A DNA stretch of 64,000 bases, taken from positions 434,001 to 498,000 of the forward strand of contig QAZA01000050.1 of assembly GCA_003054695.1 (NCBI GenBank), given 5' to 3'. Source of the DNA: Verrucomicrobia bacterium LW23. Lineage in GTDB: Bacteria > Verrucomicrobiota > Verrucomicrobiia > Methylacidiphilales > UBA1321. Made by a program: the position numbers and the translations under genes. The number at the start of each line of letters is the position of its first letter. Within the stretch, counting starts at the first letter, position 1. A model generated the notes under the pieces. That model was given only the letters and a program-made list of their open reading frames with translations. It was not told where the DNA came from and did not search any database. Shown here in pieces: positions 41,600 through 58,160 of the stretch.

Positions 41600-42256
41600 G
41601 CTCAATAGCCTCAATCAGCTGCACCGATATGCTGTGTGTATAATTGAGGATCAGGCCATCCACGATTTCGTGCGCCAGCAGCTTGGGCGCCCACGATTGA
41701 TCCTTCGCGAGGAGATCGTCGGTTATCGTCAGCGCCACATGAGTCCCCTTCGGCCTCCAGCGCTTCGTGGATTCCCAGCAGAAGCCCACCGTGCAACGAG
41801 CTCAGCGACGCCTTCCGACCCATCATAAAGCCCACAGCGCCAAACATGCCTGTGGAGATGGCGCAGGCCATCGGCAAATGCCGTGGAGGATGGAGCGTCA
41901 AAGTTCATTGGGTTGCCTCGCATGCTCGGCTCGGCCTGAAGATGGCGCTGACCGCGGGCAAGGTCGCCGACGGCCCGGCAGGACGCGAACTGCTGGCCCC
42001 GTCAAAGCGCAATATAATCAGGCGCTTCCTACCCCTGGAGCGCTCTCTTGGAGAGCAGCATTTTGGCGGCCAGATTGGGACGGTAGCCGAGTTCCGCCGC
42101 GACTCTGCGGATTTTCTCGATGGTGTCCGCCTTGTAGAGGTCATCGAGCTTTCGGTTGAGGATATTGGACACGGTGTTCAGCGATACATTGCAGGCTTCC
42201 GCAATGGTGCGGAGGCTTGTCGACATCGATGAGCGGCGCGTTCTTTCCTTCTTCAT
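41600..42256 (-). pseudogene. Decayed LacI-family regulator gene
   Basis: The N-terminal helix-turn-helix is intact (LRTIAEACNVSLNTVSNILN, then YKADTIEKIRRVAAELGYRP), in the same subfamily as the regulator at 58297-59367 (INTVSDILN, YKPETVERVRQVAKKQNYRP). The frame then stops after LLSKRALQG. Further along the same strand, fragments of the sensor domain appear in different frames: MFGAVGFMMGRKASLSSLHG with LLLGIHEALEAEG, and, shifted, THVALTITDDLLAKDQSWAP with LAHEIVDGLILN. About the last half is missing and replaced by remnant 1. An operator-like site lies just upstream of the start, as for the intact gene. A truncated DNA-binding fragment of about 70 residues could still be made. Confidence 0.78.
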
Positions 42257-42264
42257 CTGTCCCA

Positions 42265-42280
42265 ATATGAAGGTTAATGT
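42265..42280. promoter_or_regulatory. Operator-like palindrome, site 1 (upstream of decayed LacI gene)
   Basis: ATATGAAGGTTAATGT, matching 12 of 16 positions of the locus consensus ATATGAACGTTCATAT. It directly precedes the decayed LacI gene and lies 137 bp before the pectate-lyase-like gene start. Confidence 0.5.
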
Positions 42281-42402
42281 GAATCTGGCAAGTCTGCTCT
42301 GCTTTGCCCTGGCGCGTGTCTCATCTCTGTCCTCTCCCCTCCCCTCACCACACCCAAGGCTTAATCGATTGCAAAATCACTTGCTATTTCTGCTTTTTGA
42401 AT

Positions 42403-42418
42403 TTATGAAGGTTCATAT
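42403..42418. promoter_or_regulatory. Operator-like palindrome, site 2 (overlapping the ribosome binding site of the pectate-lyase-like gene)
   Basis: TTATGAAGGTTCATAT: ATGAA and TTCAT arms around GG, 14 of 16 to the locus consensus. It covers the GAAGG ribosome binding site (42407-42411) and touches the start ATG at 42417, so repressor binding would block the leader; the in-frame ATG at 42405 lies inside it and is a less likely start. Confidence 0.55.
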
Positions 42419-44327
42419 GGCCATGATCATTAAGCTCTTCGCCCTGGTTATAGCGGCGCTTCTGGTCGCGACAGCACCCGCATGCGCGGATTTCCGTTTC
42501 CCCGCAGGGTCTGGGGTGGTCAATGTGCGTGACTACGGAGCAAAGGGTGACGGGAAAACCGATGATACGGCGGCCATCAATAAGGCTATTGCTGAGAATA
42601 TCGAGAAGCACCGCTATCGCAGCAACCCCTTCATCTACTTTCCCCGCGGCACGTACCTTGTCTCGGGCCCGATCGAAGGCCGGGTCATCAAGCCTGGCAG
42701 GGAGGAGGGCAAAGTATGGAGCGCCGGCTGGATGAGCATGATGTCCCTGATGGGCGAAAGCCGCGAGGGTACGATCATCAAGCTGGTTGACAACGCGGAG
42801 GGTTATGGAGATCCCGCCAACCCGAAATGGCTCGTCGCCACGGGATCCGAGAGTGACAAAAACACGAATTACAAGGGCGGGGGGAACCGCGCTTTTCGTC
42901 ACTGCATTACGAATTTGACGGTGGACGTTGGAAATGGGAATCCCGGCGCGATAGGTATCGACTTTATCGCCAGCAACCGCGGCACTGTGGACGGCGTTAC
43001 CATCCGCGCGGGTGCGGGTAGCGGGCACACAGGGCTGGCGCTGACGAGAAACTGGCCTGGCCCGGCGCTGATCTATGATGTTCTGATTGATGGCTTTGCA
43101 CGTGGCATCGAGCTCGGCCACTTCCAGTACGGAATGACGTTTGAGAACATTCAAATGAGGGGGCAACGTGAGGTGGGCGTCAAAAACAGGCACAACGTTG
43201 TGGCGATGCGTCGCGTCAACTTTACGGGTAGCGTGCCGTTTTACAATGCGACCGGCCGCAGCGGCATGCTGTGCCTGATGGACAGCTCGATTCAGGGAAC
43301 CGGCGCCGCGGCCAACGCGTCGGCGATCGAGAGCGAGTCACTGGCCAACCTGCGCAGGGTCACGTTCACCGGCTTTGGCAAAGCGTTTGACGATACTGGG
43401 GCCTCGAACAAAGACATTGCGGCGGAGGCCGGCAAGCCAACCGTGGTGCGTAGCTACGACCAGGGCTTTACCCTCTGTGCCTCTGGCGGAGAACCGGAAG
43501 GGCTCGACTTGCCGATTGAGGATGTTCCCACGGTTCGTCCCGGTCCCGACGATGAATGGACGGACGCGGGCGATTCCGGAGAAAGCCTCCAGAAAGCGAT
43601 TGATAGCGGTGCGGAGTGGATTTATGTGAAGCCACGCGGGGCTCTGGAGATAACCAATACCGTTATCCTCAGAGGCAAAGCAAAACTCATCTATGGGCTG
43701 AACGGGCATATCAAAAGCCCCCCCGGCGTCCCGGCCTTTCGCGTGGATGAAGGCAGCTCCCCGGTGGTGGTGCTGGAGAACATCTACATTGAGGGCGATG
43801 TGGAGCATCCCAGCCGGCGCACGTTTGTTTTGCGCCACGGTGATTTCCATGTGAACGGAATCAAGGCAACCGGTCCGGGAAAGACCCACATCGTCGATGT
43901 CATTGGCAAAGGTTACCAGATTGGGCCTCAGCACACCCTCTGGGCCCGCCAGCTCAACGCGGAATTTGGCGAAGCACCGCTTTTCACCAACCACGGTACG
44001 TCATGGATCCTTGGATTCAAGATGGAGACTTCGCCCCGCGGGAGCAAGGACGCGCCCAACAGCACGCCCTCGATCCTCAACAAGGCGGGCCGTCTGGAGC
44101 TGTTGGGGGGCCTGCTGTACACGCTGGGCGAGAAGAAAGAGCAAGCGCCGCTCGTTCCCGCCTTTACCAACGAAAGCGGTTCAATCGCAATCTCTTACCG
44201 CACCAACGGAAAGCCGGAGACATACTACCGCACGATCCTTCGCATGGGCAGCTTTGAAGGGGGCGAAGATCTCCCCGCGTCCCAAATCAAGGGACCGGGA
44301 GCCGCATTGCTGACAGACAAACGATAG
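42417..44327 (+). CDS. Secreted pectate-lyase-superfamily (right-handed beta-helix) protein
   Basis: 636 residues from the ATG at 42417, which has GAAGG five bases upstream. Signal peptide IIKLFALVIAALLVATAPA. The mature protein opens with the Pectate_lyase_3 signature GVVNVRDYGAKGDGKTDDTA and continues with beta-helix segments (FIYFPRGTYLVSGPI, VNFTGSVPFY). A second half beginning near WTDAGDSGESLQKAIDSGAE repeats the layout. Proteins with this fold are lyases or hydrolases of acidic polysaccharides, but the catalytic residues cannot be assigned by eye. It is a paralogue of the convergent gene at 44710-46647 (shared motifs TNWPGP / RNWPGP and VWARQLN). Two operator-like sites precede it, suggesting control by the local LacI regulator. 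Confidence 0.85.
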   Translation: MAMIIKLFALVIAALLVATAPACADFRFPAGSGVVNVRDYGAKGDGKTDDTAAINKAIAENIEKHRYRSNPFIYFPRGTYLVSGPIEGRVIKPGREEGKVWSAGWMSMMSLMGESREGTIIKLVDNAEGYGDPANPKWLVATGSESDKNTNYKGGGNRAFRHCITNLTVDVGNGNPGAIGIDFIASNRGTVDGVTIRAGAGSGHTGLALTRNWPGPALIYDVLIDGFARGIELGHFQYGMTFENIQMRGQREVGVKNRHNVVAMRRVNFTGSVPFYNATGRSGMLCLMDSSIQGTGAAANASAIESESLANLRRVTFTGFGKAFDDTGASNKDIAAEAGKPTVVRSYDQGFTLCASGGEPEGLDLPIEDVPTVRPGPDDEWTDAGDSGESLQKAIDSGAEWIYVKPRGALEITNTVILRGKAKLIYGLNGHIKSPPGVPAFRVDEGSSPVVVLENIYIEGDVEHPSRRTFVLRHGDFHVNGIKATGPGKTHIVDVIGKGYQIGPQHTLWARQLNAEFGEAPLFTNHGTSWILGFKMETSPRGSKDAPNSTPSILNKAGRLELLGGLLYTLGEKKEQAPLVPAFTNESGSIAISYRTNGKPETYYRTILRMGSFEGGEDLPASQIKGPGAALLTDKR

Positions 44328-44416: not shown

Positions 44417-44455
44417 AGTGACGCTTTCTCTGGTCCTTTCCATTTCCGCGTTGTC

Positions 44456-44619
44456 AGACCAATTGTCGGAATAAACCGGTACATGGGTGGAGGCGATTTT
44501 GAGATGAGGGCAAGGCGAGGCTGAGGGAGTGCATTTGAAAAATGCATGACCGAAGACTCAACGCCGCCCTCGCTCAAAAGCGTCCCGCCAATATACCGGT
44601 TTATTCCGATAATTGGTCT
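44456..44619. repeat. Dispersed palindromic repeat, copy 1 (164 bp)
   Basis: Outer 26-base arms 44456-44481 and 44594-44619 are inverted copies (25 of 26). Inside are further paired blocks (GATTTTGAG/CTCAAAAGC type) and a central hairpin TGCATTT-GAA-AAATGCA (about 44530-44546). The core CAAGGCG..GAGGGAG.GCATTTG.AAAATGC.TGACCGA is shared with copy 2 at 55048-55129 in inverse orientation. It sits between the convergent 3' ends of the two pectate-lyase-like genes, as a bidirectional terminator or BIME-like element would. Confidence 0.85.
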
Positions 44620-44709
44620 CAGTAGCAGGTAAGCAAAGAAGTCTCGCAGGGAATCGCCTGTGCAGGCACATCCACTGAAATCGAACCTATGAAGCTACCG
44701 ATTAGCTGG

Positions 44710-46647
44710 TTAGTTGCCTGTATATAAAGGAAGGATCGTTCCGTACTGACGATACCCACCGTTAAATGCGTTTTGCTCGCTCTTTCCTATCGGAATCTTG
44801 AGATCCATTGTCTTGCCCGCTCTGGTTTCTCTGACCAACGCCTCCGCAAAGCGGCCATTGCTTGTCAGCACACCCGCTAATGTCATCTGGCTGTTCTCGT
44901 TTATATAGCCTACCTCTCCATCGTGATAATGCCACGCTCCAAGTACCTCCACACGGGCGCCCTGGGTTGCATGAATGACGGTACGTCCATATTCCGTCTT
45001 TAATCCGAGAACCCATAATGATCCTCCCTGAATACGTATGTTAAAGCTGTCCGGAACCTTTTTGGACGCTTCCGGATTGAGCTGCCTTGCCCATACGGCT
45101 ATGTTCTTCAGGTCAAAACCACTTCCGCAAACATCATAGAGAAACAGTCTGCCTCCCGGTACTGTGTTGTGAAACCGGCCGGAAATGCAGTTTTTAATAA
45201 CCACCGTTTTATTGGATGCCAGCTCATAATAGCGACTGGCTTTACCGTAATTATCATTTACTCTGTCGATCAGCAATGCGGGCTGCCCGTTATCAACAAT
45301 CCTAAACACAGGATCGCTTCCCTTATCCCAGTTAATAGAAGATAACGTACTATCCATCCCCAGTATTGCTTTCACCTTTCCTCCAAGGGTTACCGTATTC
45401 AGAAAATCGTAACTTCCTTTCGGAAAATAGATTACCTCCGCGCCCGAGTTTACCGCCGCCTGCAATGCCGGCGCCCAGTTCTCGACGTCGGTGTCCTTCA
45501 CCTTCACCAGCTCGGGGCTAAATCTTCTGATACTGACCCACGTCGTCGGGGAACCAAGATCGATCCGGGGCGCGTCCTCAACAGGAAGCTTTAAAGTTGC
45601 CCTTGATTGCGAAAGGAGACTCACTGGCGGGATGGACGAAAACTCTGCAACCAGACCGTCCGGGAGTTCAATCTGCTTTCCCGCAATCTTGTACGCCAGC
45701 GCGCTGGAGTAGCCGCTTGTTCTTACATTGCGAAGGTACAGACCCGGCACAATTGTCTCAAAAGCGTAGCGGCCGCTCTTCTCGAGTTCATGCGAATCAA
45801 TAGCAATACCCCCTCCGCCGCCTTTGAACTCACTATCGACAACAACTATATTTGTTGTGGGAGTGCAATTGCGTATAACAGGAACTCTATTCTCACTCAC
45901 CAGATTACGAAAGAACAGGGCTTGGCCTTTATTGAAGACGCCCCACTCTTTCTGATGCATCAACGTTACATTCTCCAGCGTAATGCTGTACTGACCTATC
46001 GTGCTCCAGATTCCAATATCAAACCCCTCTATCCTGACATTGCGAACAAGAGAGGGTCCCGGCCAGTTTGTAACGAACCCAAGCCCCGCTTTTCCCTGGC
46101 CCTTTATGTTAACATTTTCAATAGTCCCCTGATTGTTTGCCAAATAATGCACGGCAACGGCCCCCTCGTTGCCTTTCTCTACCTCTACAGTAAGATTAAT
46201 CAGCGAATTTTTGAATGCCTGTCCCATGCTCGACGAGCTGTCCATAAACTTGCTGTAAGTCGAAATAAACGGTTTCGGCTTTCCGCGATCCTGAAAACCC
46301 GCACTCCCCGCCTTCAGTTTGATAACCACGCCATCCCTGCTCTCCCCTTGCAGCACGATCCTTTTGTTGCCCAGGTAAAGGGTGTCGCTCAGCAGATACG
46401 TCCCGTTCGGAAAGTAGAACGTTGCGCCAGCATGTGGATTCTCCGGGCGAAACTTACGCAACGCAGCCGTGTCGTCGGTGATACCATCGCCCATCGCCCC
46501 CAGCGTTTTCACATTTATCCAGCCCGAGTCGTCCGGCGGCGAATAGACGGAAACCCCGACGAGACCGTCACCCCCGTGAGCGCACGGCGAAAAGGACGCG
46601 AGGAGCAAGAAGAAGAGTAAGCCGAGAGGCATTAGCGAGTGGAACAT
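44710..46647 (-). CDS. Secreted pectate-lyase-superfamily protein, paralogue
   Basis: 645 residues. Signal peptide SLMPLGLLFFLLLASFSPCA. The Pectate_lyase_3 opening reads WINVKTLGAMGDGITDDTAA, followed by TFYFPNGTYLLSDTLYLGN and beta-helix repeats; FVTNWPGPSLVRNVRIEGFD and IAVWARQLNPEASKK match the paralogue at 42417-44327. A second beta-helix region starts near NWAPALQAAVNSGAEVIYFP. Likely an exported enzyme or binding protein for an acidic polysaccharide; catalytic residues not assigned. It reads towards its paralogue with the palindromic repeat between them, and is divergent from the GH39-like gene. One operator-like site lies 55 bp upstream. Base composition appears lower in GC than the first 25 kb. 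Confidence 0.85.
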   Translation of the reverse strand: MFHSLMPLGLLFFLLLASFSPCAHGGDGLVGVSVYSPPDDSGWINVKTLGAMGDGITDDTAALRKFRPENPHAGATFYFPNGTYLLSDTLYLGNKRIVLQGESRDGVVIKLKAGSAGFQDRGKPKPFISTYSKFMDSSSSMGQAFKNSLINLTVEVEKGNEGAVAVHYLANNQGTIENVNIKGQGKAGLGFVTNWPGPSLVRNVRIEGFDIGIWSTIGQYSITLENVTLMHQKEWGVFNKGQALFFRNLVSENRVPVIRNCTPTTNIVVVDSEFKGGGGGIAIDSHELEKSGRYAFETIVPGLYLRNVRTSGYSSALAYKIAGKQIELPDGLVAEFSSIPPVSLLSQSRATLKLPVEDAPRIDLGSPTTWVSIRRFSPELVKVKDTDVENWAPALQAAVNSGAEVIYFPKGSYDFLNTVTLGGKVKAILGMDSTLSSINWDKGSDPVFRIVDNGQPALLIDRVNDNYGKASRYYELASNKTVVIKNCISGRFHNTVPGGRLFLYDVCGSGFDLKNIAVWARQLNPEASKKVPDSFNIRIQGGSLWVLGLKTEYGRTVIHATQGARVEVLGAWHYHDGEVGYINENSQMTLAGVLTSNGRFAEALVRETRAGKTMDLKIPIGKSEQNAFNGGYRQYGTILPLYTGN

Positions 46648-46701
46648 AGCGAATGAGAACGAGTGCGATAAAGAAAAGAAATGGTGGGTTCCGCGCCATC
46701 C

Positions 46702-46717
46702 ATATTAACGTTAAAAT
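46702..46717. promoter_or_regulatory. Operator-like palindrome, site 3 (upstream of the minus-strand pectate-lyase-like gene)
   Basis: ATATTAACGTTAAAAT, with the perfect 10-base dyad TTAACGTTAA at 46705-46714. It lies 55 bp upstream of the minus-strand lyase. A weaker partial copy, TTTACGTTAAT, is near 46744-46754. Confidence 0.55.
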
Positions 46718-46961
46718 TGCGATCGACAAGTCAAACTTGCGCCTTTACGTTAATCGCCGTCAAAGCCTGCGCACTTTCTCTCATATGAATCCCTCCCCTC
46801 CAGCCTCCATTTAAGTCTCGCCCGTACCAGGCACCACTTCGCGCCCTCATCGCCAGGGACATTGACAAAATGTCTGCCAAAATCGGCGCTGCTCCCGCTT
46901 CGGACGCTGCCTGAATGCCTGAAAACTTACTTTAGCATTGACGACGCCACGCTGACGGGTT

Positions 46962-46977
46962 ATATGATTGTTCATAT
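46962..46977. promoter_or_regulatory. Operator-like palindrome, site 4 (upstream of the GH39-like gene)
   Basis: ATATGATTGTTCATAT: perfect 6-base arms ATATGA/TCATAT around TTGT, 14 of 16 to the locus consensus, 38 bp before the GH39-like start codon. The position within the leader suits repression. Confidence 0.6.
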
Positions 46978-47014
46978 TAAGCATCACTATTGCCCCCTCG
47001 CATCCTTTCCTCGC

Positions 47015-48490
47015 ATGATTAACTTCGAAGTTCGCCCCCTCTGGGGCTCACAGCCGACCCCATTTCGGCATACGTGGAAGGGTCTCGTCAATATCGACCA
47101 GTTCCGCTGGCTGGTTCGTGCTGATGTTCACGAGCAACTGGCTCTTGCGGCCCAGGAGCTCGGCGCCAGACTCGTGCGCGCGGTCGGCATGCTCGACGAC
47201 GAGATGCGAGTGCTCACCGCGGACCCTACCCGCTGGCGCAAAGACGGAAAGCTGCACGAGGAGCCGAACTGGCAGATCGTGACCATGATTTTTGAGCGCC
47301 TCCTCAACCTCGGTATCCACCCGATGGTGACGACGTGCTTTATGCCGGGCGCCATCGCCGCGGGAAGCCGCACCGTATTTGAGACGAAAGCAAGGATTAG
47401 CATGCCGGCCTGCATGAAGCAGTGGCGGACGCTTGTGGGCAGCCTTGTGCGCCACCTGGCACGTCATTTTGGCCACGAGGTCATCCGCAAGTGCTATTTT
47501 GAGGTGTGGAACGAGCCCAATCTGCAGAACGGCTTTTTTGAAGGCGGGAAGGAGGATTTTTTTGAGCTTTATCGCAATACAGCCTCGGCCATCAAGGAAG
47601 TCGACAGCACGTTTAAGGTAGGCGGCCCGTCCACCGCACGAGCGGAGTGGATGCTGGATTTTCTGGACTTCTGCCGTAGCCAGGACTTGGAGCCGGATTA
47701 CATTATCGGTCATATCTACAACAACGATAATGACAGCAAGCCGCTCTCGCCCTTTGACGGCCCGCAGGAGGATCTGATATCGAGATCACCCCATTTTGCC
47801 GCTGGAGTCGTGCGCGGCACGCGGAAGATTCTGGATGAGGCCGGCTTTCAAGGTGAGATTCACTGGAACGAGTGGGGACGCTCCTGGTTTCCCTGCGACA
47901 TTCTCCGCGAAACTTCGAATGAGGCGGCCTTTATTGTCAAAACGATGGCCGAGGTATCGCAACTGGGGGATTACTTTGCGTACTGGTGCCTGTCGGACAT
48001 CTACGACCAGGTGGGCTACGGTCGTCAGGCCTTCCATGGTAACTACGGATTGCTTAGCCTGCAGGGGTTGCGGAAGCCCGGCTACCACGCTTTTCAACTG
48101 CTTGGGATGATGGGCGAGCAACAGATTAAAGTTGAAGGAAACGGCTTAGGTAAGCTGACAAATGCGATCGCAACCACATCAGCATGCCATTCTGAAGTAC
48201 TTATATATGCGTTCGACGACATGGATCAAGCCGCTGGAGATCGTTCCTTTACGGTTATACTACCACCCAGGCAGCGGCTGCAAAAACTGTACCGGATTAC
48301 AGAAAGCGAAAACAATATTGTGAGCCGGTGGAAGGCTATGGGAAGTCCTTGCTATATTAATCCGGTGCAGGCCACGCAGCTTAAGCAATCCAACCTGCTT
48401 ACAGAAACCACGGACTATGTATGCGATGATATCACCGTAAAGTTTACTCTGAGCTCCCCTGGTGTCGCACTTCTCACTTTTAGTTATTGA
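47015..48490 (+). CDS. GH39-like glycoside hydrolase (beta-xylosidase/iduronidase type)
   Basis: 491 residues from the ATG at 47015 (MINFEVRPLWGS). A TIM-barrel retaining glycosidase of clan GH-A: acid/base Glu167 in YFEVWNEPNLQNGFF-EGG and probable nucleophile Glu286 in EIHWNEWGRSW. The length and the FWNEPN-like block fit GH39 (beta-xylosidases, alpha-L-iduronidases). There is no signal peptide, so it acts in the cytosol on imported oligosaccharides, unlike its secreted neighbours. The frame is open upstream to 46862, but that stretch contains operator-like site 4 and is not protein-like. It heads a run of five plus-strand genes. Family call is by motif, so GH39 against a neighbouring family is not certain. 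Confidence 0.8.
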   Translation: MINFEVRPLWGSQPTPFRHTWKGLVNIDQFRWLVRADVHEQLALAAQELGARLVRAVGMLDDEMRVLTADPTRWRKDGKLHEEPNWQIVTMIFERLLNLGIHPMVTTCFMPGAIAAGSRTVFETKARISMPACMKQWRTLVGSLVRHLARHFGHEVIRKCYFEVWNEPNLQNGFFEGGKEDFFELYRNTASAIKEVDSTFKVGGPSTARAEWMLDFLDFCRSQDLEPDYIIGHIYNNDNDSKPLSPFDGPQEDLISRSPHFAAGVVRGTRKILDEAGFQGEIHWNEWGRSWFPCDILRETSNEAAFIVKTMAEVSQLGDYFAYWCLSDIYDQVGYGRQAFHGNYGLLSLQGLRKPGYHAFQLLGMMGEQQIKVEGNGLGKLTNAIATTSACHSEVLIYAFDDMDQAAGDRSFTVILPPRQRLQKLYRITESENNIVSRWKAMGSPCYINPVQATQLKQSNLLTETTDYVCDDITVKFTLSSPGVALLTFSY

Positions 48491-48510
48491 GTCCCCACTG
48501 TCGCGTTCCA

Positions 48511-49554
48511 ATGACTGGCCTACTCCATGCGATTCCTGTCGCAACCCTGCTACTTGCAGCGGTCTGCCAAACCGCGCTTTGCCAGGTAGATGTCGCGCCA
48601 GCACGCTCGGAGAGTTCACCTTCCGCTCCTGTAATCGCGCAGCAAGGCGAAACGTGGGCATCCGTGGAACTAAAGCGAGGCGATTTTCGTGTCGTTGTGG
48701 CCGCGCCAGATGCCGAACGGAGTTTTTATAGCGGGCCCCGGTTCGATCACTCTGGATTTGTCTACAGCGCTGACCTCAGAGGTCTTCGACTTTTCGGTCC
48801 GTGGACTGTCGGGTTCAAGCGTGGCAATACAGACTCGGTTGTTGGTACGGCGGGTGAGTTCGGAATGAACGCGCCGCTTGGCTTTGATGAAGCGAAAGCG
48901 GGGGATTTATTCCTTAAAGTCGGCGTTGGCCATCTCAGGCGCAAAGATGATTCCCCTTACCACTTTTCAAAGAAATATGAAATAGTCAATCGCGGTAAAT
49001 GGGAAGTATCAAGCGGTGAAGCGTTTTTTGAAGCTGTGCATGTTATTGAACCGCTTCGCGACTGGGGCTATGAATACAAGAAACGAATAGAACTAGTGGA
49101 TCCTGCTTCTATCGCCATTACGTATCGACTGAAAAACACGGGCCAACGTACCATTTCGACTGACTACTATTCGCACAATTTCTTTGTATTTAACAGCGAG
49201 ATGATTGGAGAGGGAGATGGAGTGGAGATCCTGGCCGATAATGCAGCTCCCAAACTGCGGCCGCCCGCTCAGGTGCATCCACGCAAAGTTGAGTTTACCG
49301 GGGATATCATCCCAGGGAAGGGCTACTTTCTGGAGGTGCCGCTGCCCGATTCTCTGGAGAATCGCCCGCTCGCGCGCATTTATCAGAAAAGGAGCGGGGC
49401 TTCGGTCGTGATCTCGTCGACCTGCTCGCCGTACAAACTGGCGATCTACGGTCACTCGCGGGCGCTCTGCGCTGAGCCCTTTGTGCGGATCCAGCTTGAG
49501 CCCGGCAAAGAGATGGAATGGACGGACACGTATCAGCTGATCGTGCGGCGGTAA
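48511..49554 (+). CDS. Secreted galactose-mutarotase-like protein
   Basis: 347 residues. The ATG at 48511 begins a signal peptide (GLLHAIPVATLLLAAVCQTA, cleavage near LCQ). The mature part is strand-rich and resembles aldose-1-epimerase-like folds: PRFDHSGFVYSADLRGLRLF near the start, GVGHLRRKDDSPYHFSKKYE, ISTDYYSHNFFVFN, and YKLAIYGHSRALCAEPFVRI near the end. His residues in YSHNFF and the acidic segment could be catalytic as in mutarotases, but this is inference. A TTG at 48487 overlapping the preceding stop is an alternative start. It follows the GH39-like gene by 20 bp, so the two share an operon. Confidence 0.68.
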   Translation: MTGLLHAIPVATLLLAAVCQTALCQVDVAPARSESSPSAPVIAQQGETWASVELKRGDFRVVVAAPDAERSFYSGPRFDHSGFVYSADLRGLRLFGPWTVGFKRGNTDSVVGTAGEFGMNAPLGFDEAKAGDLFLKVGVGHLRRKDDSPYHFSKKYEIVNRGKWEVSSGEAFFEAVHVIEPLRDWGYEYKKRIELVDPASIAITYRLKNTGQRTISTDYYSHNFFVFNSEMIGEGDGVEILADNAAPKLRPPAQVHPRKVEFTGDIIPGKGYFLEVPLPDSLENRPLARIYQKRSGASVVISSTCSPYKLAIYGHSRALCAEPFVRIQLEPGKEMEWTDTYQLIVRR

Positions 49555-49613
49555 ACTCGGTACTGATCTCAAAATGTTGAGAAAAGCGACTTACCTCACC
49601 CGCAAACAAAGCA

Positions 49614-49629
49614 ATATTATCGTTCATAT
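49614..49629. promoter_or_regulatory. Operator-like palindrome, site 5 (upstream of the FG-GAP gene)
   Basis: On the minus strand it reads ATATGAACGATAATAT, 14 of 16 to the locus consensus, 75 bp before the FG-GAP gene. A small hairpin GCCCC/GGGGC enclosing GATGCATC is at 49649-49668, between site and start. Confidence 0.5.
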
Positions 49630-49703
49630 AAAGCCAGCGATTTCTAACGCCCCTTGATGCATCGGGGCAAACATCAGGCAACTCTGAACATCAAGGACTC
49701 CCC

Positions 49704-51392
49704 ATGAACCTGACACCATCCTCTCGGGCGCTGCTTATCCTGCTAGTCGCCCTTGCTCTGCCACTTTCCGCAACGGCCGCGGCGGCGCCGGCCAAGGACG
49801 CCGCCCTGAAAGCTCTCGACTTCGAGCGCTTCAGTAAAGCCAACAATCCGTGGGCGGGAGTGGACGGACAGGGGTACCTTCGCGTTTTCGAGGCCAGCGC
49901 CACGGTGGTGACGAACTCCGGGCGCAGTGTGGCTACGCCGCTTCCCTGCTCTCCCAACGCGGTGGACATGAACGGCGACGGCATTCTCGACCTTGTGGTA
50001 GCCGACGCGGAGGGGTACACCTGGTTTTATCCTAACGTTGGAACAAAGGAGGAGCCCAAGTTCACTTTTGGCGAGGTCATTCCGATCATGCTGTCCAGTG
50101 GAGGATCGCAGTGTCTGGGGCTGGCCGCTGTCGACTATGATGACAGTGGTAAGCCTGGTCTTATTTATGGTGACTGGCTTGGGCAGATATTTATCGCTCC
50201 CAATCTGGGAAGCAATAAGGAGCCAAGGTTTATGCAGCCTAAAGAGGCCAGCGATTATAAGATTGCAACAAGTAAAGATGGTCGACTATGGGGTAATTAC
50301 TTTTACCCCACAATGTATGATTGGAACGGGGACGGCCGCAAGGACCTTATTCTTGGTGAAGGGACATACTCCGCCAACAGCATTTGGCTGATGATCAATC
50401 AGGGAAGCAGCGCTACTCCTGTATATAATCAAAATGAGGGGAAGCGAATCCCACTTATCCGAGGGTTGGGTCGGGAGCATCTTACGCCTGCTATTATAGA
50501 TTGGAACGGCGACGGTCGTCCAGATGTAGTTACGGGAGAACGCGAAGGAGGAGTGAGCGTTTATATCAATGCGACGGAGGCGGGTTCCAAAGAGTCGCAG
50601 TTTCTGCCACCGACGCCGATCAAGTTTGGTAATGCGGCGAGTATCGGCGCTCTCTCGCGGCTCACATTCGCGGACATTAATGGCGACGGGCTGCCGGACG
50701 CTATCGTTGGACGATCCAACGGACGCATTGGCATTGCGTTAAACACGGGCACCGCCACCGAGCCCTCGCTTGGCGCCATCAAGGATGTGAACGGCACGAA
50801 TCCGCTCCCCCCCTATGCCAGGTCGCCCGACGCATCATTTGCGCCTCCGGAACGGAGCACTTTTCACCTGCTAAAAGTCGTGTCCAACATCCCTACGGAA
50901 AAGGAGACCTTTGAGGAGGGATATGCGCCTCCACCCGACTCCTCGGGCAAGCGATCTCTCAAGATTGAATTCTGTGATACGAAGCAAAAAGTATTCACCA
51001 ATCCGCTTCCTCTTTCGGAAGGCAACCGAAATTATGGGGTTGATCTCAGAGGAGGTTTTCGCCTGGAGTTTGGTAAGGACTATACTCTCACCTTTTGGGT
51101 AAAGAACAGAGGATTTCGACGTATGTCGTGGACGGTTGAATGTAATGAAACGGTTGTCATAGGCAAGGACGAAGACAGCCTGGATTTGACGCAAACAGAG
51201 AACTACAGCGTCTCACGGGAATTCGGGGCCAGCGATAGCTGGAGCAAGATTACCGAAACGTTTCGCATTACAAAGAAGTCGGACAGCAAAACAACCAAAT
51301 CGCAGCTGGGCGGTTCCCTCAAATTCGGCTTCTCTGGTCAGGGCGCTGTGTACCTGGATGATGTACGGCTTGTCGAAGGGGGCGGATTCTAA
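49704..51392 (+). CDS. Secreted FG-GAP/VCBS-repeat protein with C-terminal carbohydrate-binding-like domain
   Basis: 562 residues. Signal peptide ALLILLVALALPLSATAAAA. Residues about 40-370 form a beta-propeller of calcium-binding FG-GAP repeats: DMNGDGILDLVVAD, DYDDSGKPGLIYGD, DWNGDGRKDLILGE, DWNGDGRPDVVTGE and DINGDGLPDAIVGR. The C-terminal 180 residues resemble a CBM4/9-type jelly roll ending in AVYLDDVRLVEGGGF. It probably binds polysaccharide outside the inner membrane. It lies in the same direction as the glycosidase genes on both sides (63 bp to the next) and has its own operator-like site upstream, so it may have a separate promoter within the cluster. Confidence 0.82.
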   Translation: MNLTPSSRALLILLVALALPLSATAAAAPAKDAALKALDFERFSKANNPWAGVDGQGYLRVFEASATVVTNSGRSVATPLPCSPNAVDMNGDGILDLVVADAEGYTWFYPNVGTKEEPKFTFGEVIPIMLSSGGSQCLGLAAVDYDDSGKPGLIYGDWLGQIFIAPNLGSNKEPRFMQPKEASDYKIATSKDGRLWGNYFYPTMYDWNGDGRKDLILGEGTYSANSIWLMINQGSSATPVYNQNEGKRIPLIRGLGREHLTPAIIDWNGDGRPDVVTGEREGGVSVYINATEAGSKESQFLPPTPIKFGNAASIGALSRLTFADINGDGLPDAIVGRSNGRIGIALNTGTATEPSLGAIKDVNGTNPLPPYARSPDASFAPPERSTFHLLKVVSNIPTEKETFEEGYAPPPDSSGKRSLKIEFCDTKQKVFTNPLPLSEGNRNYGVDLRGGFRLEFGKDYTLTFWVKNRGFRRMSWTVECNETVVIGKDEDSLDLTQTENYSVSREFGASDSWSKITETFRITKKSDSKTTKSQLGGSLKFGFSGQGAVYLDDVRLVEGGGF

Positions 51393-51455
51393 TATCGACT
51401 GACCCATCCCTTTAGCATTATCACCGCAACACTCGTTACTTCTCCTTCTGTCATT

Positions 51456-53981
51456 ATGAACAAACCCGTCTCCCTGCGTCGCCTCCTGAGCACCTTTATG
51501 GTGATGCTATGTTGTGGAACCGCGCCCGCGTCAATGGCTCAGCAGCCCGCGCCAACCCTGCCGCCCGATTCCGAGTATGTTACCGTTCAGAACGGGCATC
51601 TTACTTTCAAAGGAGAACGGCAGCGCTACTGGGCGGTGATCGGAAGTTTTCCCGGCAACCCCAAGTTTGACCCGTCGGATACCGCAGAGCAGCGAGCGGA
51701 GAAAGTCGCCGCCGCTCGCACTAACGCGGACGCGATCGTGAAGCGGTTTGAGGACCTGGGATTCAACATGGTTCGGTATTGGTACGCCCCCGGCGCTGTG
51801 CGGCATACGCAGGGAGGCGCGCCGCAGCCCAAAGCATACGCTAAAGGGGATGGCTCCGCGCGGGATATCGCCGACTACTTTCTGGCCAGGCTCCAGGAAC
51901 GGGGATTCCGCGTCTGGACCGCCGGCCTGAACGATCTTGGGACTATCACTCCTGACGACGTGAGCGTACTGGACGATCCCGCAACCGCCCAGGAGTGGCG
52001 TGCGGCTATCGATGAAGGGATCAAGGCACAGAAGGGGAAGCCCGGCGCCCCCGCAGCAACAACCCTGCAAGTGAAAAGCCCCGCGCAAATCTGGGACCCC
52101 CGCCTGGAGGCGCTCACCATCGCCCGCATGAAGGCGGTGGCGGATCACACGAACCAGTACACCGGCCTGCGCTGGGCGGATGACCCGCTGTTCTGCGTAT
52201 GGGAGCTGTCCAACGAGCAGTGGTGGATGCGCAACATGCTCCGCGGCTCGTGGCAAAAGCTGCCCGCCTTCTTTCGTAACTCGCTGGTGGCGCGTTGGAA
52301 CGGGTATCTGCAGAACAAGTATGGCAGCGATGAAGCCCTGGCAAAAGCGTGGGCGCCCGCCGGAACCACCGGAAACCCCGGCGCAGCGACACCGTCCGGC
52401 CTGCTGCCCGCGGAGAGCCTCAGCCGCGGTTCGGTGCTCTTTGCGCCGATGGGAGGAACCACGCCGGCGGCCGCCGCCTTTAACGACGCAAACCCGGCGG
52501 CGGTGGCGTCGATGCAGGGTCTTAAGCAGGAGTATCGGCGCGAAGATTTCACGCCTGCCCGGGCGTCCGATGTCATCGCATTTCTGCTGGAAATCCATCT
52601 TGCGCACAAAAAGCGGTTGGAAGCGGCGGTGAAGTCGTGGGGAAAGAGCACGCGTCTGAGCCCGCTGGTGATGGATACCGGCCTTGGCTACGACATCCAC
52701 TCCCAGTACGCCCACCAACAGTTTGACGCCACCGCGCATGACGCGTACACGAACGGGACCGGGCCCGATTACAAGGAGCCCGATGCAACAACACTTGCGG
52801 CCTTGCCGAATGATCAACAACGGGACATCGCCCGGCAGGGGGAGGAGCGCATCAGCGCCAATCACCCGGAGGGCTGGGTAAACTGGCTGCTTAAGCCGCC
52901 GGGTCTTGCCCAGGGCGTTCCGTGGCTGGAGGTCGGCCGGATGCCGGGCAAGCCGTTTTTCGGTTACGAGACGCAGATTCAGCAGCCCGCCAAGTACCGC
53001 GCCGATTACCCGCTTCGCATCCTGGCGCTTGCGGCAATCCAGGACTGGGACATCATCTGCTGGCACTACTGGGGGCCTGCTCCGGAGGCGGCTCGGCCGG
53101 GTGGCTTTGACAAGGCGATGGACATCACCACAGGGAGCCATCCGCAGGGCTACCACTTCACGTTCGACGAAGTGCAGGGCGCCACCATGCGGGCGGCCGC
53201 CGCGCTTTTTCGCAACGGAGCGTTGGCGCCGGCGCAAAATCCGACCACGTTTATCTATGGCAAGAAGAGCCTACTTTCGCCCGATACGATGATCTACGCG
53301 GGCTCCTATGGGAAGAACGGCTTGGATATGTTGCAAACGACCTACCAGTACGGTTCGCGCATTTTCATCGATCCTTCCCGTGAAGATGACGAAGTGATTG
53401 GGCCGGTAGTCAAGTTTGAGGACCGCAACACGCACAATCCGTACACCCCCACCCGGGAGATTACGTTTGACTGGAAGGCCGGGTTTCTCTCCATGGATTC
53501 CGCCAACGGAGTCGCATGGACGGGTCTGGCCGCATGCGTCGGCAATCGGGTGGAACTTCGCGGCGGCGACATCGTGCTGAGCGACATTGTCATGAAAAAT
53601 CCCCCAGGCAGCTTCTCGCCCGTTACCGAGGACGAGAACTTCCTTGCGTTTACTCTCTACACCAGGGACGGCCTCCCGCTGGCTTCGACCAAACGGGCTT
53701 CGCTCTCTCTGGTAAGCACCAGCTTCAACACGGGCTTCCGCATGGAAAAGCTTCCGCCTTCCGCTGACGGGGCGCCGCAAAAGCGCACGGTCACCGCCGG
53801 CAAGGCGCCCGTTCTGGTCACTCGCGTTGGCGCTACGGTCAAGGTTATCGCCATGGCGGGCATGCGCTACAGCCTGCGGGACTGGCACATGCAGGAGATT
53901 GGCACCGGCACAATCGGAGCGGATGGAGTGCTACGAATCAGCCCGGAACTCCCCATTTGGGTGGTGGAACTCAGTCGCTGA
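51456..53981 (+). CDS. Secreted clan GH-A glycoside hydrolase
   Basis: 841 residues. Signal peptide LLSTFMVMLCCGTAPASMAQ. The catalytic TIM barrel shows GFNMVRYWYAPGAVR, then FCVWELSNEQWWMRN with the acid/base Glu254 (after Asn253), and FFGYETQIQQPAKYRADYPL with the likely nucleophile Glu505, followed by WDIICWHYWGPAPE. This Asn-Glu plus late Glu pattern is that of GH5/GH42-like retaining enzymes; the exact family is uncertain. C-terminal 200 residues are strand-rich (ITFDWKAGFLSMDSANGVAW), probably an accessory domain. An insert around residues 300-370 is low-complexity. Part of the plus-strand glycan operon; 42 bp before the dehydrogenase gene. Confidence 0.8.
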   Translation: MNKPVSLRRLLSTFMVMLCCGTAPASMAQQPAPTLPPDSEYVTVQNGHLTFKGERQRYWAVIGSFPGNPKFDPSDTAEQRAEKVAAARTNADAIVKRFEDLGFNMVRYWYAPGAVRHTQGGAPQPKAYAKGDGSARDIADYFLARLQERGFRVWTAGLNDLGTITPDDVSVLDDPATAQEWRAAIDEGIKAQKGKPGAPAATTLQVKSPAQIWDPRLEALTIARMKAVADHTNQYTGLRWADDPLFCVWELSNEQWWMRNMLRGSWQKLPAFFRNSLVARWNGYLQNKYGSDEALAKAWAPAGTTGNPGAATPSGLLPAESLSRGSVLFAPMGGTTPAAAAFNDANPAAVASMQGLKQEYRREDFTPARASDVIAFLLEIHLAHKKRLEAAVKSWGKSTRLSPLVMDTGLGYDIHSQYAHQQFDATAHDAYTNGTGPDYKEPDATTLAALPNDQQRDIARQGEERISANHPEGWVNWLLKPPGLAQGVPWLEVGRMPGKPFFGYETQIQQPAKYRADYPLRILALAAIQDWDIICWHYWGPAPEAARPGGFDKAMDITTGSHPQGYHFTFDEVQGATMRAAAALFRNGALAPAQNPTTFIYGKKSLLSPDTMIYAGSYGKNGLDMLQTTYQYGSRIFIDPSREDDEVIGPVVKFEDRNTHNPYTPTREITFDWKAGFLSMDSANGVAWTGLAACVGNRVELRGGDIVLSDIVMKNPPGSFSPVTEDENFLAFTLYTRDGLPLASTKRASLSLVSTSFNTGFRMEKLPPSADGAPQKRTVTAGKAPVLVTRVGATVKVIAMAGMRYSLRDWHMQEIGTGTIGADGVLRISPELPIWVVELSR

Positions 53982-54023
53982 TGCGCCACCCACTCACCAT
54001 TCAGAACTCGATCCACCCCCACT

Positions 54024-55025
54024 ATGAGCCGCTCTCCCAAAACTGCCTTTATTGGAATGCCCCGATTCCTCAAACGGGTCTATCCCGACGCTATGAGGCG
54101 AGAGATCGACGCAATCGCGCCGATTCTTGGGCGGGACATCGACGGCGAGCTATGGGCGAACGAGCTGTCCACCCTGGCGGATGTGGAGGTGCTCATGGGC
54201 ACCTGGGGCGTCCCTCGGCTGGACGCGGCCTTTCTCGACGCGGCGCCCCACCTCAAAGCCATCTTCTACGGGGCAGGCACAATCAAACACTTCGTGACGG
54301 ACGCCATGTATGAGCGCGGCATTGTCATCTCCAGTGCCGCGGAGGCCAACGCGGTTCCGGTGGCGGAGTTTACCCAGGCCGTCATCCTGCTGAGCCTGAA
54401 GCGGTACTGGCAGTTTACCGATAAGATACGCGAGCGCAGGCAGTGGGTAAGGGAGGGAGAATGCCCTGGCGCCTACCGGTCCGTTGTGGGGCTGGTATCC
54501 TTTGGCAGTATCGCAAAACGGACGGCCGCGCTTCTTGCCCGGCACGACCTCCGTCTGATCGCGTACGACCCTTATCTCTCCCAGGCTCACGCCCAGGAGT
54601 TTGGGGTGCGGCTGGTGACCCTTGAGGAACTGTTTCGCGAGAGCGACGTCGTCAGCCTCCACGCCCCGCTGCTTCCCGAAACCACCGGCCTGGTGGGCGA
54701 GAAGCTGCTGGCTACCATGAAGCAGGGAGCCACGCTTGTAAACACGTCCCGAGGCGCGATTATCAACGAGTGCGCCCTGGCGAAGGTCCTGTCGGAGCGA
54801 CGCGACCTGACCGCGGTGCTTGACGTTATGACCGAGGAACCCGCCGCGTCGGACAACCCGTTGCTCGGTATGCCCAACGTTCGGATTTCGCCACACATTG
54901 CGGGAAGCATGGGTGGCGAAGTGGAGCGGCTGGGGAGCTGGATGTTGGACGAGCTGAGGAGATATTGCGCGGGGGAAGCGCTGCTCCACCAGGTGCATGC
55001 GATTGATCTGGCTCGAATTGCCTGA
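54024..55025 (+). CDS. D-isomer-specific 2-hydroxyacid dehydrogenase
   Basis: 333 residues, cytosolic. The catalytic triad is complete: Arg243 in NTSRGAIINE, Glu272 in TEEPA, His291 in SPHIAGS. The NAD-binding loop is unusual, VVGLVSFGSIAKRTA rather than GxGxxG, and the acidic residue after strand 2 is Asp182 (AYDPYL), which favours NAD. It probably reduces a 2-oxo acid or oxidises a 2-hydroxy acid from sugar-acid breakdown, fitting its place at the end of the glycosidase operon. Start ATG at 54024 leads into TAFIGMPRFLKRVYPD. It faces the heparinase-like gene tail-to-tail, with palindromic repeat copy 2 between. Confidence 0.9.
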   Translation: MSRSPKTAFIGMPRFLKRVYPDAMRREIDAIAPILGRDIDGELWANELSTLADVEVLMGTWGVPRLDAAFLDAAPHLKAIFYGAGTIKHFVTDAMYERGIVISSAAEANAVPVAEFTQAVILLSLKRYWQFTDKIRERRQWVREGECPGAYRSVVGLVSFGSIAKRTAALLARHDLRLIAYDPYLSQAHAQEFGVRLVTLEELFRESDVVSLHAPLLPETTGLVGEKLLATMKQGATLVNTSRGAIINECALAKVLSERRDLTAVLDVMTEEPAASDNPLLGMPNVRISPHIAGSMGGEVERLGSWMLDELRRYCAGEALLHQVHAIDLARIA

Positions 55026-55047
55026 TGAGTCTGCCCATCTGCTCGTC

Positions 55048-55129
55048 CTTCGAGGGAAATCCCGCGTTGCTCGTCGGTCACGCATTTTACAAATGCGCTC
55101 CCTCGTCACGCCTTGGCTTTCCCTCGAAG
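55048..55129. repeat. Dispersed palindromic repeat, copy 2 (82 bp)
   Basis: CTTCGAGGGAAA (55048-55059) and TTTCCCTCGAAG (55118-55129) are perfect 12-bp arms. The centre is a hairpin CGCATTT-TAC-AAATGCG (about 55080-55096). The reverse complement of the core aligns to copy 1 at 44456-44619 with around 80% identity over about 50 bases, while the outer arms differ. Like copy 1 it lies between convergent gene ends. Confidence 0.85.
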
Positions 55130-55187: not shown

Positions 55188-58160
55188 TCAGCTGGCTGAC
55201 GCGCCCACCGGAACCTCCTCAGGCATTTCTGCCTGAGGAGTGAGCAGGTCAATGGATCGTCGCGCGGCGCAGGCGGTTTCCCAGTCGGAGTCGTTGACCC
55301 ACTTCTTCAACGTCGGCAGAGCGAACGGATCGCCGAGCAAACCGAGAATGTCGGCGGCGATCCGACGCGCGCCATAGAAGTCCTCGGGTGCCAGAACTGA
55401 GCAAATTTCCGGCACAGCGCTCGCGTCGCCAATGCGGCCGAGGGCGACCAGCGCGGCTTCCTTCAGGCGATATTTAGGAGGGTAATCGTCCGCCTTTATC
55501 TTCTGCACTGATTCCTCGCGAAGGATCTCGCACAAGATCGGAACCGCCCGCTGCGACTTGTGCCGGCCGAGCGCAAAGATGGCCAGGAGTCGCACGCCCC
55601 AGTCGGCGTCGCCCATGGCGGTAGCGATGAGCTTTTGCTCGACATCGCTCAGGGGCGCGTGCATCGCGAGCGCGCACGCTCGGCCGCGCTGTTCCGCCGA
55701 GCCATTCCAGTGGGGCGCTTCCGTTTCCGCGAGGGGAGACAAAACCTTGCGCAACATTTCCTCGGCAAGGGACATCGGGTCCGCGCCGCGAGTGGCGAAC
55801 GCTGCGTCCGACTTTGGCGAGGTACGAATCTTCCGCAGATCGATCGAGTGGGTGTGCGAACCGACCGTTACGTCGATTCTGTCACCTTGCCGTGTAACCG
55901 ACGGCGGCGCCACGTTGCGAGCGATGTGAAGCTTCACACTACCGCTCACGCGGCCGCGCTGGGGGAACATAATAGCGACATGCACTTCGCTCTTCCCCCG
56001 AACAAGCGCGGTTACGTCGACAAACGGAGCCATCAGGCGGGTGGATTCTCCGTGGTACGGGGACATTTCGGGGATCGGCACCGCGATTCCATCCACCCAC
56101 GCATAGAGACCGGAAGTCCGGGGCAGCTCCAACAGGTAATCGCGATCAGCGCCGCCTGCGGAGGCAGGCACCTCGCAGCTGCGGCAGAACCACATCTGAC
56201 CGCCCGAGCTGCTCTTCTCCCTGGTTGGGGCCTCGAAATAGCAATCGCAAAGTTCGCCATCGCGCCACTCGCCACCATTCGCCTCCTCCCGGGATGGCAC
56301 CGCGATTGAGTCGGCGCACTCTCCCCGGAGAATGGCCCTTTTGCGCCAGCCTGAAGTCCAGTCCGCCACCTCGTGACGAGCAAGCTGCGGCACAAGGATG
56401 GTGACAAACTCCACGGCATGGCCCCGCAGCGATTTCTGAAGCCAGTGGCACCTCGCCTCCAGAGTATTGGGATAGCCTGGCACGTCGTGCATGCTGAATC
56501 GGGCGGAATCGACCGAAATCACATCCAGCACCACGTGCTCTGCGGTCGTAAGCCTGGCCCCATACTCCGTGAGGCTGGCACCCCACCGCAGGACGAGTTG
56601 CCAGGTGAATTCATGGGAAGTCTCGGCCGCGATGGAATCCAGGATGACCCAAAGCCGGTCATCCACCAGTGCGGAACTGCGCACCATGGATTGGATATCG
56701 AACCGGTTTGCGTAAAAGGGCGCGACGTCCGCCGCCAACACCTGCAGCTCGTCAAGCGACTCCAGGCGCTGCAGGGTGCCGGTGACGACCTCCTCCGGAA
56801 CGTTCCGAAAACCGCCGCCGCTATTGGTGTGCTCGATGGCGCCATCCACAACAATGCAGCTGTGGGCGCCCAGAGAGCCGGCGGCCCAGCTCAGCACCCT
56901 GGGCTCCTTGAAGTACTGATGCAGGTACTGCATACGCGGGTCCCCGTTCAGCTCGTAAACGTCTTCCACGGCATTGCCGTCCACGGTGAGAAGCGAGCCC
57001 CACGCTTCCAGAAGCAGGGCGTTCGGGTTCATGTGGGCACGAATCGGCCGGCTTGATGCCAGATCCCACATCTGGAAGAGATGCAGCGTGGACATCTTGT
57101 TGAGCAACGCGCCTCCCACGCGATCCACAGCCCACGATCGGGGATAGCACTTTGCCCCCGACGCGGGAGGCGCGACCTGCGACGGGTCGGGCATCCAGAT
57201 CAGCATCCAGACATGATCATCGGCCATCCAGGCAAAGTGGCCCGCAAACTCCCAGCCCTCGCCAAAGAGGTAGTGATACGCGTACGAGGGGTCGCCGGTC
57301 CTGTGGGCCAGATAGCAGGCGGTTGTGCCGGCTTTGGGCAGCTGAAAACCATGCTGATCCCAGGCCGGCAGCACCCCGCTGGGCGGAACCAGCCGCGCGT
57401 TAAGCTCCAACACCTTGAGAGCAGAATTTGCGCTTGGGGCGAACTCGAGGTTCAGGTAATCCTCGCGCGTTATCGCCTCCATCACGGCGGTGCCCAGCGC
57501 CATCAGCGGGTCGGCGACGGCGACGATGTAGGTGCTCCCTTCTCCGCTGTATCCGTCGGGTGGCAGATAGGCGGTTTGCTGGTGCATGTGGGGCAAACCA
57601 ACCTCAAGCAGGTGTCTGGCCCGGGGATCGTTTCCGCGGCGAACTCCGAACAGGTAACCGATGGTGACCAGGTTGAGAGCCTGCGCAAGGCCCTGATTGT
57701 TCGCATGGGGCGGAACCCGATGGTGCAGAACAACATACGGGTACTTGAGGGAATCGGTGATAAAGTGGTCGGCCAGGCGCGCCTTCTCTTCTTCCGAAAA
57801 AACGCCGGAATCCCAAAGCCAGTCACAGGCGATCGCGCGCCGGACCATTGTAGCGGCGTAGATCCACGTGTCGAGATCCTGGGCGCCAACCTGCAGCGTG
57901 GCCTCGTAGTTGTCGAGCATCCACATCACGTCCCGGCGGGCGGCGTCCGCCCACTGCGGGCCGTCGATCAAGAGCGCGAACGCGGCGTGCAGAGGCATAT
58001 CGCCAGCCGTTCCCGGTCCGTACCAACGCACCGATCGCTTTTCGGCACGGGCAAGGGACAGGAAATGCTCCCATCGACGCTTCCAGTTTCCCTCAAAGTT
58101 TCTAATTTTAGCTCGAACTGCGGTGATATTATCGATGAGAAAAGGCGGGAGTGGCGTCAT
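55188..58160 (-). CDS. Heparinase II/III-like polysaccharide lyase with C-terminal HEAT repeats
   Basis: 990 residues. The N-terminal 370 residues form an alpha/alpha-toroid (WEHFLSLARAEKRS, WIYAATMVRRAIACDWLWD) with HHRVPPHANNQGLAQALNL and LPPDGYSGEGSTYIVAVADP, which supply Asn, Tyr and Glu residues typical of this lyase group. A beta-sandwich heparinase II/III-type region follows (CIVVDGAIEHTNSGGG, LVLRWGASLTEYG). The last 170 residues are HEAT-like repeats (DADWGVRLLAIFALGRHKSQ, LKEAALVALGRIGDASAVPE, GARRIAADILGLLGDPFALP). There is no signal peptide, so it should act in the cytosol on imported uronic-acid oligosaccharides. HEAT repeats fused to such a lyase are unusual. Own operator-like site 60 bp upstream. 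The 3' end faces the dehydrogenase gene. Confidence 0.82.
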   Translation of the reverse strand: MTPLPPFLIDNITAVRAKIRNFEGNWKRRWEHFLSLARAEKRSVRWYGPGTAGDMPLHAAFALLIDGPQWADAARRDVMWMLDNYEATLQVGAQDLDTWIYAATMVRRAIACDWLWDSGVFSEEEKARLADHFITDSLKYPYVVLHHRVPPHANNQGLAQALNLVTIGYLFGVRRGNDPRARHLLEVGLPHMHQQTAYLPPDGYSGEGSTYIVAVADPLMALGTAVMEAITREDYLNLEFAPSANSALKVLELNARLVPPSGVLPAWDQHGFQLPKAGTTACYLAHRTGDPSYAYHYLFGEGWEFAGHFAWMADDHVWMLIWMPDPSQVAPPASGAKCYPRSWAVDRVGGALLNKMSTLHLFQMWDLASSRPIRAHMNPNALLLEAWGSLLTVDGNAVEDVYELNGDPRMQYLHQYFKEPRVLSWAAGSLGAHSCIVVDGAIEHTNSGGGFRNVPEEVVTGTLQRLESLDELQVLAADVAPFYANRFDIQSMVRSSALVDDRLWVILDSIAAETSHEFTWQLVLRWGASLTEYGARLTTAEHVVLDVISVDSARFSMHDVPGYPNTLEARCHWLQKSLRGHAVEFVTILVPQLARHEVADWTSGWRKRAILRGECADSIAVPSREEANGGEWRDGELCDCYFEAPTREKSSSGGQMWFCRSCEVPASAGGADRDYLLELPRTSGLYAWVDGIAVPIPEMSPYHGESTRLMAPFVDVTALVRGKSEVHVAIMFPQRGRVSGSVKLHIARNVAPPSVTRQGDRIDVTVGSHTHSIDLRKIRTSPKSDAAFATRGADPMSLAEEMLRKVLSPLAETEAPHWNGSAEQRGRACALAMHAPLSDVEQKLIATAMGDADWGVRLLAIFALGRHKSQRAVPILCEILREESVQKIKADDYPPKYRLKEAALVALGRIGDASAVPEICSVLAPEDFYGARRIAADILGLLGDPFALPTLKKWVNDSDWETACAARRSIDLLTPQAEMPEEVPVGASAS

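Follow-up and report, generated by a model that had tools for sequence, protein, structure and literature searches.

The 162-bp palindrome at positions 44457-44618 (+ strand) of the window, which is the whole 64,000-nucleotide stretch of Verrucomicrobia bacterium LW23 analysed here, is quite probably an ERIC-like, non-autonomous MITE, with ends that would be cut in trans and a centre that would be a conserved core homologous to that of ERIC. The evidence comes from the family to which it belongs in the host genome, from the duplications at its ends, from the pairing and constraint of its core, and from similarity searches with models of the core and of ERIC.

The two palindromes and their family

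The original prediction described two palindromes between convergent 3' ends, with a shared core of about 50 bases at roughly 80% identity and with different outer arms, each a near-perfect inverted repeat; the analysis bore out this description and fixed the limits of copy 1 exactly. Copy 1 is a complete family A element, with ends GACCAATT...AATTGGTC, flanked by direct TCA duplications of the TNA type (44454-44456 left and 44619-44621 right). Its core starts with block 1, AAGGCG (44512-44517, + strand), which is common to most families and ERIC. The inner core (44523-44553, + strand) contains GAGGGAG, a hairpin with covarying stem and G.U closing pair, and TGACCGA, with a GA/GA tandem mismatch adjoining GG/CC; the hairpin had been given as 7 bp long, and its stem actually has eight pairs including the G.U. 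Block 4 of the core is CAACGC (44559-44564, + strand).

Copy 2 is an 82-bp palindrome on the minus strand (55048-55129), which has the core of copy 1 within other arms (CTTCGAGGGAAA). Its core (55064-55114) was matched at 69 bits by model R1, a covariance model of the core built before ERIC entered consideration, and contains AAGGCG (55109-55114), GAGGGAGC (55097-55104), TGACCGA (55074-55080) and CAACGC (55064-55069), all on the minus strand. The two cores align over 54 columns with 83% identity (blastn E ~1e-8 within the window, copy 2 on the minus strand), and the predicted fold energies are -105.9 kcal/mol for copy 1 and about -49 kcal/mol for copy 2. The gap of copy 1 is enclosed by genes 42204-44327 (+) and 44710-46632 (-), and that of copy 2 by genes 54024-55025 (+) and 55188-58160 (-). 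Ends and target duplication were not recognizable in copy 2, and a search for a close copy elsewhere in the genome returned none; this single copy is best explained as an old one from another lineage with decayed ends. No Rfam family matched the window at gathering score, or copy 1 at E<=1.

A dispersed structured family had been predicted, and copy 1 as a query detected about 36 close copies in the 6.6-Mb genome, most of them with 95-99% identity and nearly all with both ends. The genome-wide search with R1 gave 77 matches at E<=10; for 70, E was below 0.01. About 75 core matches in total are present when related and decayed families are included. Within family A, the columns of the element are 97% conserved while the flanks are unrelated, and the other copies are 161-164 bp long. 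Families B (loci L035-L039), C (most of loci L086-L101) and D (loci L084, L085 and L105) have the same GACCAAT ends and different arms. The rarer family E, with two complete and three half copies, has TACCC ends, with CTAG on both sides in one copy. From the outside in, the order is TNA duplication, GACCAAT end, variable arm, AAGGCG, short stem, GAGGGAG and hairpin, followed by TGACCGA, short stem, CAACGC, complementary arm, ATTGGTC and TNA.

Two other repetitions were seen around these elements. Loci L096 and L097 are on two contigs that share the same element pair with identical flanks, a duplication of the genome or of the assembly. A further large palindromic repeat, whose arms are CTTGGCGAAACTTTCCGCCCTTGGCGAT, occurs beside several elements (loci L234, L235, L045, L010, L222 and L223).

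Mobility and genomic placement

Identical triplets flank 33 of the 41 elements with clear ends, and 32 of these triplets are TNA, so that the elements have the terminal inverted repeats and target duplications of MITEs. The direct duplications and the near-identical copies indicate recent mobility, and the GACCAAT ends together with TNA point to a cut-and-paste (DDE) transposase, which would cut and join these ends in trans and duplicate the TNA. TNA target duplication is a feature of the IS1031 group of the IS5 family; judged by the duplication alone, the enzyme would be most like those of IS1031 type. The seven DDE_Tnp_1 loci of the genome have other ends, several with CTAG duplications, and searches with the end pattern returned only the elements and their deletion derivatives; none of these loci or matches was an autonomous, transposase-bearing element with GACCAAT ends. 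The end of an IS5-type element (in L205), AGGCTGTCGACATT, recurs directly beside element insertions, in the flanks of loci L003, L004, L013, L025, L045 and L089.

Short derivatives without the middle are numerous; their ends and duplications remain, which is what deletion across a palindrome would produce. Miniature hairpins of ~30-65 bp, composed of element ends only and mostly with intact target duplications, were seen as products of such deletion at loci L206, L207, L209, L211, L212, L215, L216, L221, L222 and L225.

Intergenic placement was confirmed: among the 67 copies that could be classified, 36 occupy convergent gaps, 25 tandem gaps and six divergent gaps, and none is inside a called gene. 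Only 9 of 98 other gaps (9%) are convergent; gene calls came from a simple codon model, and single cases may thus be wrong. Insertion exactly in a stop codon, found for 7 of 41 insertions against 7.5% expected (p 0.03), was too weak a signal to accept stop-codon targeting. In the tandem gaps of the host genome, the core showed no strand preference (11 vs 8). The enrichment between convergent genes is a property of this genome rather than a general one, given that copies in Dormibacterota (see below) are in 44 tandem and 4 convergent gaps; of the 44 in tandem gaps (loci L118-L189), 33 have the core on the opposite strand from the genes (p 0.001), the copies being related and not independent.

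This placement is what would be expected if the elements were kept between convergent genes as host-useful bidirectional terminators or stabilizers of mRNA 3' ends, as REP/BIME sequences are, and the hairpins are indeed very stable. However, no U-tract is predicted after the hairpin at either copy, recent copies decay without compensation, the Dormibacterota copies are mostly in tandem gaps, and the direct duplications and near-identical copies speak of recent mobility. Such a host function is unlikely to explain the family, and its placement is most economically read as tolerance of insertions near 3' ends.

The core and its relation to ERIC

The core is both structured and constrained. In 45 distinct core sequences, 18 of the 20 core pairs vary on both sides between families, with a covariation score of 0.381, compared to 0.174 for shuffled and at most 0.110 for slid controls, an effect size that is an upper estimate because the alignment was fitted to the structure. 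GA on both sides, as a tandem mismatch after a GG/CC pair, is present in 39 of these 45 sequences, and the pair closing the hairpin is usually G.C or G.U. Within family A, the 62-base core shows 1.1% substitution per site and the arms 3.4% (p 4e-7), about three times slower change in the core; in an ordinary MITE the ends, not the middle, are expected to be conserved.

Compensated arms had been proposed to imply selection for structure. This stands between families, where covariation is found, but not among recent family A copies, whose arm changes comprise 70 broken pairs, 34 G.U pairs and 3 compensated double changes. Selection on the arms of recent copies was rejected, as nothing beyond these 3 changes was found. 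The uncompensated drift indicates that, once inserted, elements only weakly retain their pairing over the full length, and suggests that complementarity of the arms is set up at the origin or movement of a lineage, rather than maintained afterwards.

The exact core pattern was found at 72 places in ~85,000 species genomes (chance expectation estimated at ~1), almost all in Dormibacterota and soil Chloroflexi, one in Bacteriovoracia and none in enterobacteria. The Dormibacterota matches are long palindromes with further, quite different ends and the same core. At least 52 copies are present in one Dormibacterota/Chloroflexi genome, some of them arrayed in tandem at 128-131 bp; head-to-tail arrays of core elements with this period were located in Chloroflexi CF_121 (G396) at C232:471-1054 and C83:35052-35504. 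In a set of 60 relatives of the host, four had a match in addition to the host's own entry, and in a scan of 338 genomes of the phylum at a strict threshold, with few candidates scored, the host alone matched. Such a patchy distribution resembles that of elements that move horizontally. Carriage by viruses was rejected, the core pattern having no match in viral contigs.

Family B resembles ERIC in its middle. When R1 was run on 40 kb of E. coli chromosome, its best match was ERIC, in the same register (E 0.1); the same was true of a Rahnella plasmid stretch (E 0.11), and a further model, R2, gave similar and not better results for both. Conversely, model R3, built from eight ERIC copies alone and run at full sensitivity over the window, gave a single significant match, copy 1 (E 0.0008, next match 0.39), with copy 2 fourth (E ~1), and it matched families A, B and D in their loci at E 0.001-0.009; the E-values of models of this type are rough. 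AGGCGGC and GAGC, core blocks of the host elements, are among the invariant parts of the eight ERIC copies. A four-block score trained on elements of the host genome and three relatives, with blocks chosen in knowledge of ERIC, was higher at five of the eight ERIC loci than at any of the 261,498 background positions; a sixth stood out against its own locus, and the other two, the Vibrio copy and one Klebsiella copy, did not stand out.

An ordinary MITE could have come to resemble ERIC by convergence, if long palindromes that survive replication acquire an interrupted centre. Long palindromes in this genome often lose their middle, and the statistical link to ERIC comes from scores of 24 bits or less. 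On the other hand, the four shared sequence blocks, in the same order, are more than interruption alone requires; palindromic shuffles of ERIC reached at most 26.4 in 3000, compared to 28-38 for the five ERIC loci; and the core sequence is conserved across phyla and constrained within family A. Convergence thus appears very unlikely.

Under the preferred reading of an ERIC-like MITE, the structured hairpin core would be retained while ends and arms are exchanged, and it would be a portable module that rides on ends cut by different transposases. The core would most likely work as a folded single strand. Our first choice is RNA, in which a nuclease-resistant or protein-bound hairpin with G.A mismatches in read-through transcripts could make insertion near 3' ends tolerable; the second is a DNA hairpin that could act during transposition. 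The RNA-level action is ranked somewhat above the DNA role. Four observations count against the reading as a whole: none of the DDE_Tnp_1 loci or end-pattern matches was an autonomous parent, two ERIC loci did not stand out in the block score, the arms of recent copies drift uncompensated, and the core has no strand preference in the host's tandem gaps. More tentatively, and with rather less confidence than we place in the MITE itself, the ERIC core may be an ancient cross-phylum structural module that parasitizes unrelated transposition systems. The module, not the ends, could then be the lasting selfish unit, since the same folded core is found within elements of different ends and target duplications: TNA here, TACCC ends with CTAG in family E, other ends in Dormibacterota and TA in ERIC.

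ERIC has been used for decades in bacterial typing, and we know of no identified mover for it, nor of an established cause for its conserved middle. The comparison that ERIC lacked is now provided by relatives that differ in their ends, have clear target duplications and were recently active: the G.A hairpin core, common to all lineages, must matter, and the ends, which differ, are exchangeable. The spread of such elements can thereby be approached in a new way. The covariance models can now be used to find further members, and offer a way to check whether PCR signals of ERIC type outside enterobacteria have a genuine source.

Comparison with known systems

The IS1031 group of the IS5 family shares the TNA target duplication with the present elements, but the IS5-type elements of the host genome have ends unlike GACCAAT, and a transposase with GACCAAT ends was not found among the loci examined. 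RUP, Correia/NEMIS and other bacterial MITEs are similarly 100-200 bp long, with terminal inverted repeats, short target duplications and stable transcripts; to our knowledge, RUP and Correia/NEMIS share no core with the present elements. RUP differs in that a partner transposase has been proposed for it (PMC2229807), and none is known for the elements described here.

REP/BIME sequences are also dispersed extragenic palindromes with mismatched hairpins, but REPs are 20-40 bp long, carry a GTAG or CGTC tag (PMC3733652) and are moved by a Y1 transposase without target duplication, in contrast with the 162 bp of copy 1. The REP/RAYT reading, of short hairpins moved as single strands by a Y1 tyrosine transposase, would agree with the asymmetric mismatched hairpin and with the five Y1/RAYT-type matches of the genome, but is largely refuted and highly improbable, given that no copy is near any of these matches, the tag is absent, and REPs have neither target duplications nor long terminal repeats. 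The proposed BIME/REP likeness was consequently abandoned, the U-tract of a terminator being missing as well: the elements are ERIC-like MITEs with their own ends, not REP/BIME terminators.

The family had been regarded as new-looking, which applies to its termini and host and not to its core. As far as found, ERIC has been described only from enterobacteria and vibrios, and a partial literature search yielded no report of relatives outside gammaproteobacteria. ERIC (IRU, RU-1) is likewise an extragenic, MITE-like imperfect palindrome with no known autonomous parent (PMC2229807, PMC10969869), and an RNA effect is supported by published work in Yersinia, where ERIC at 3' ends alters transcript stability through RNase E (reviewed in PMC2229807, PMC10969869). 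It is 127 bp long, with TACCC-type ends and TA at the ends, whereas family A has 162 bp, GACCAAT ends and a TNA duplication; its middle arms, between outer and inner core blocks, are longer; and its hosts are Enterobacteriaceae and Vibrionaceae, while the present elements are found in other phyla. Both have the four core blocks AAGGCGG, GAGC, GTGACYG and CCAACGC in the same order, and a GA/GA mismatch beside a hairpin closed by G.U or G.C.
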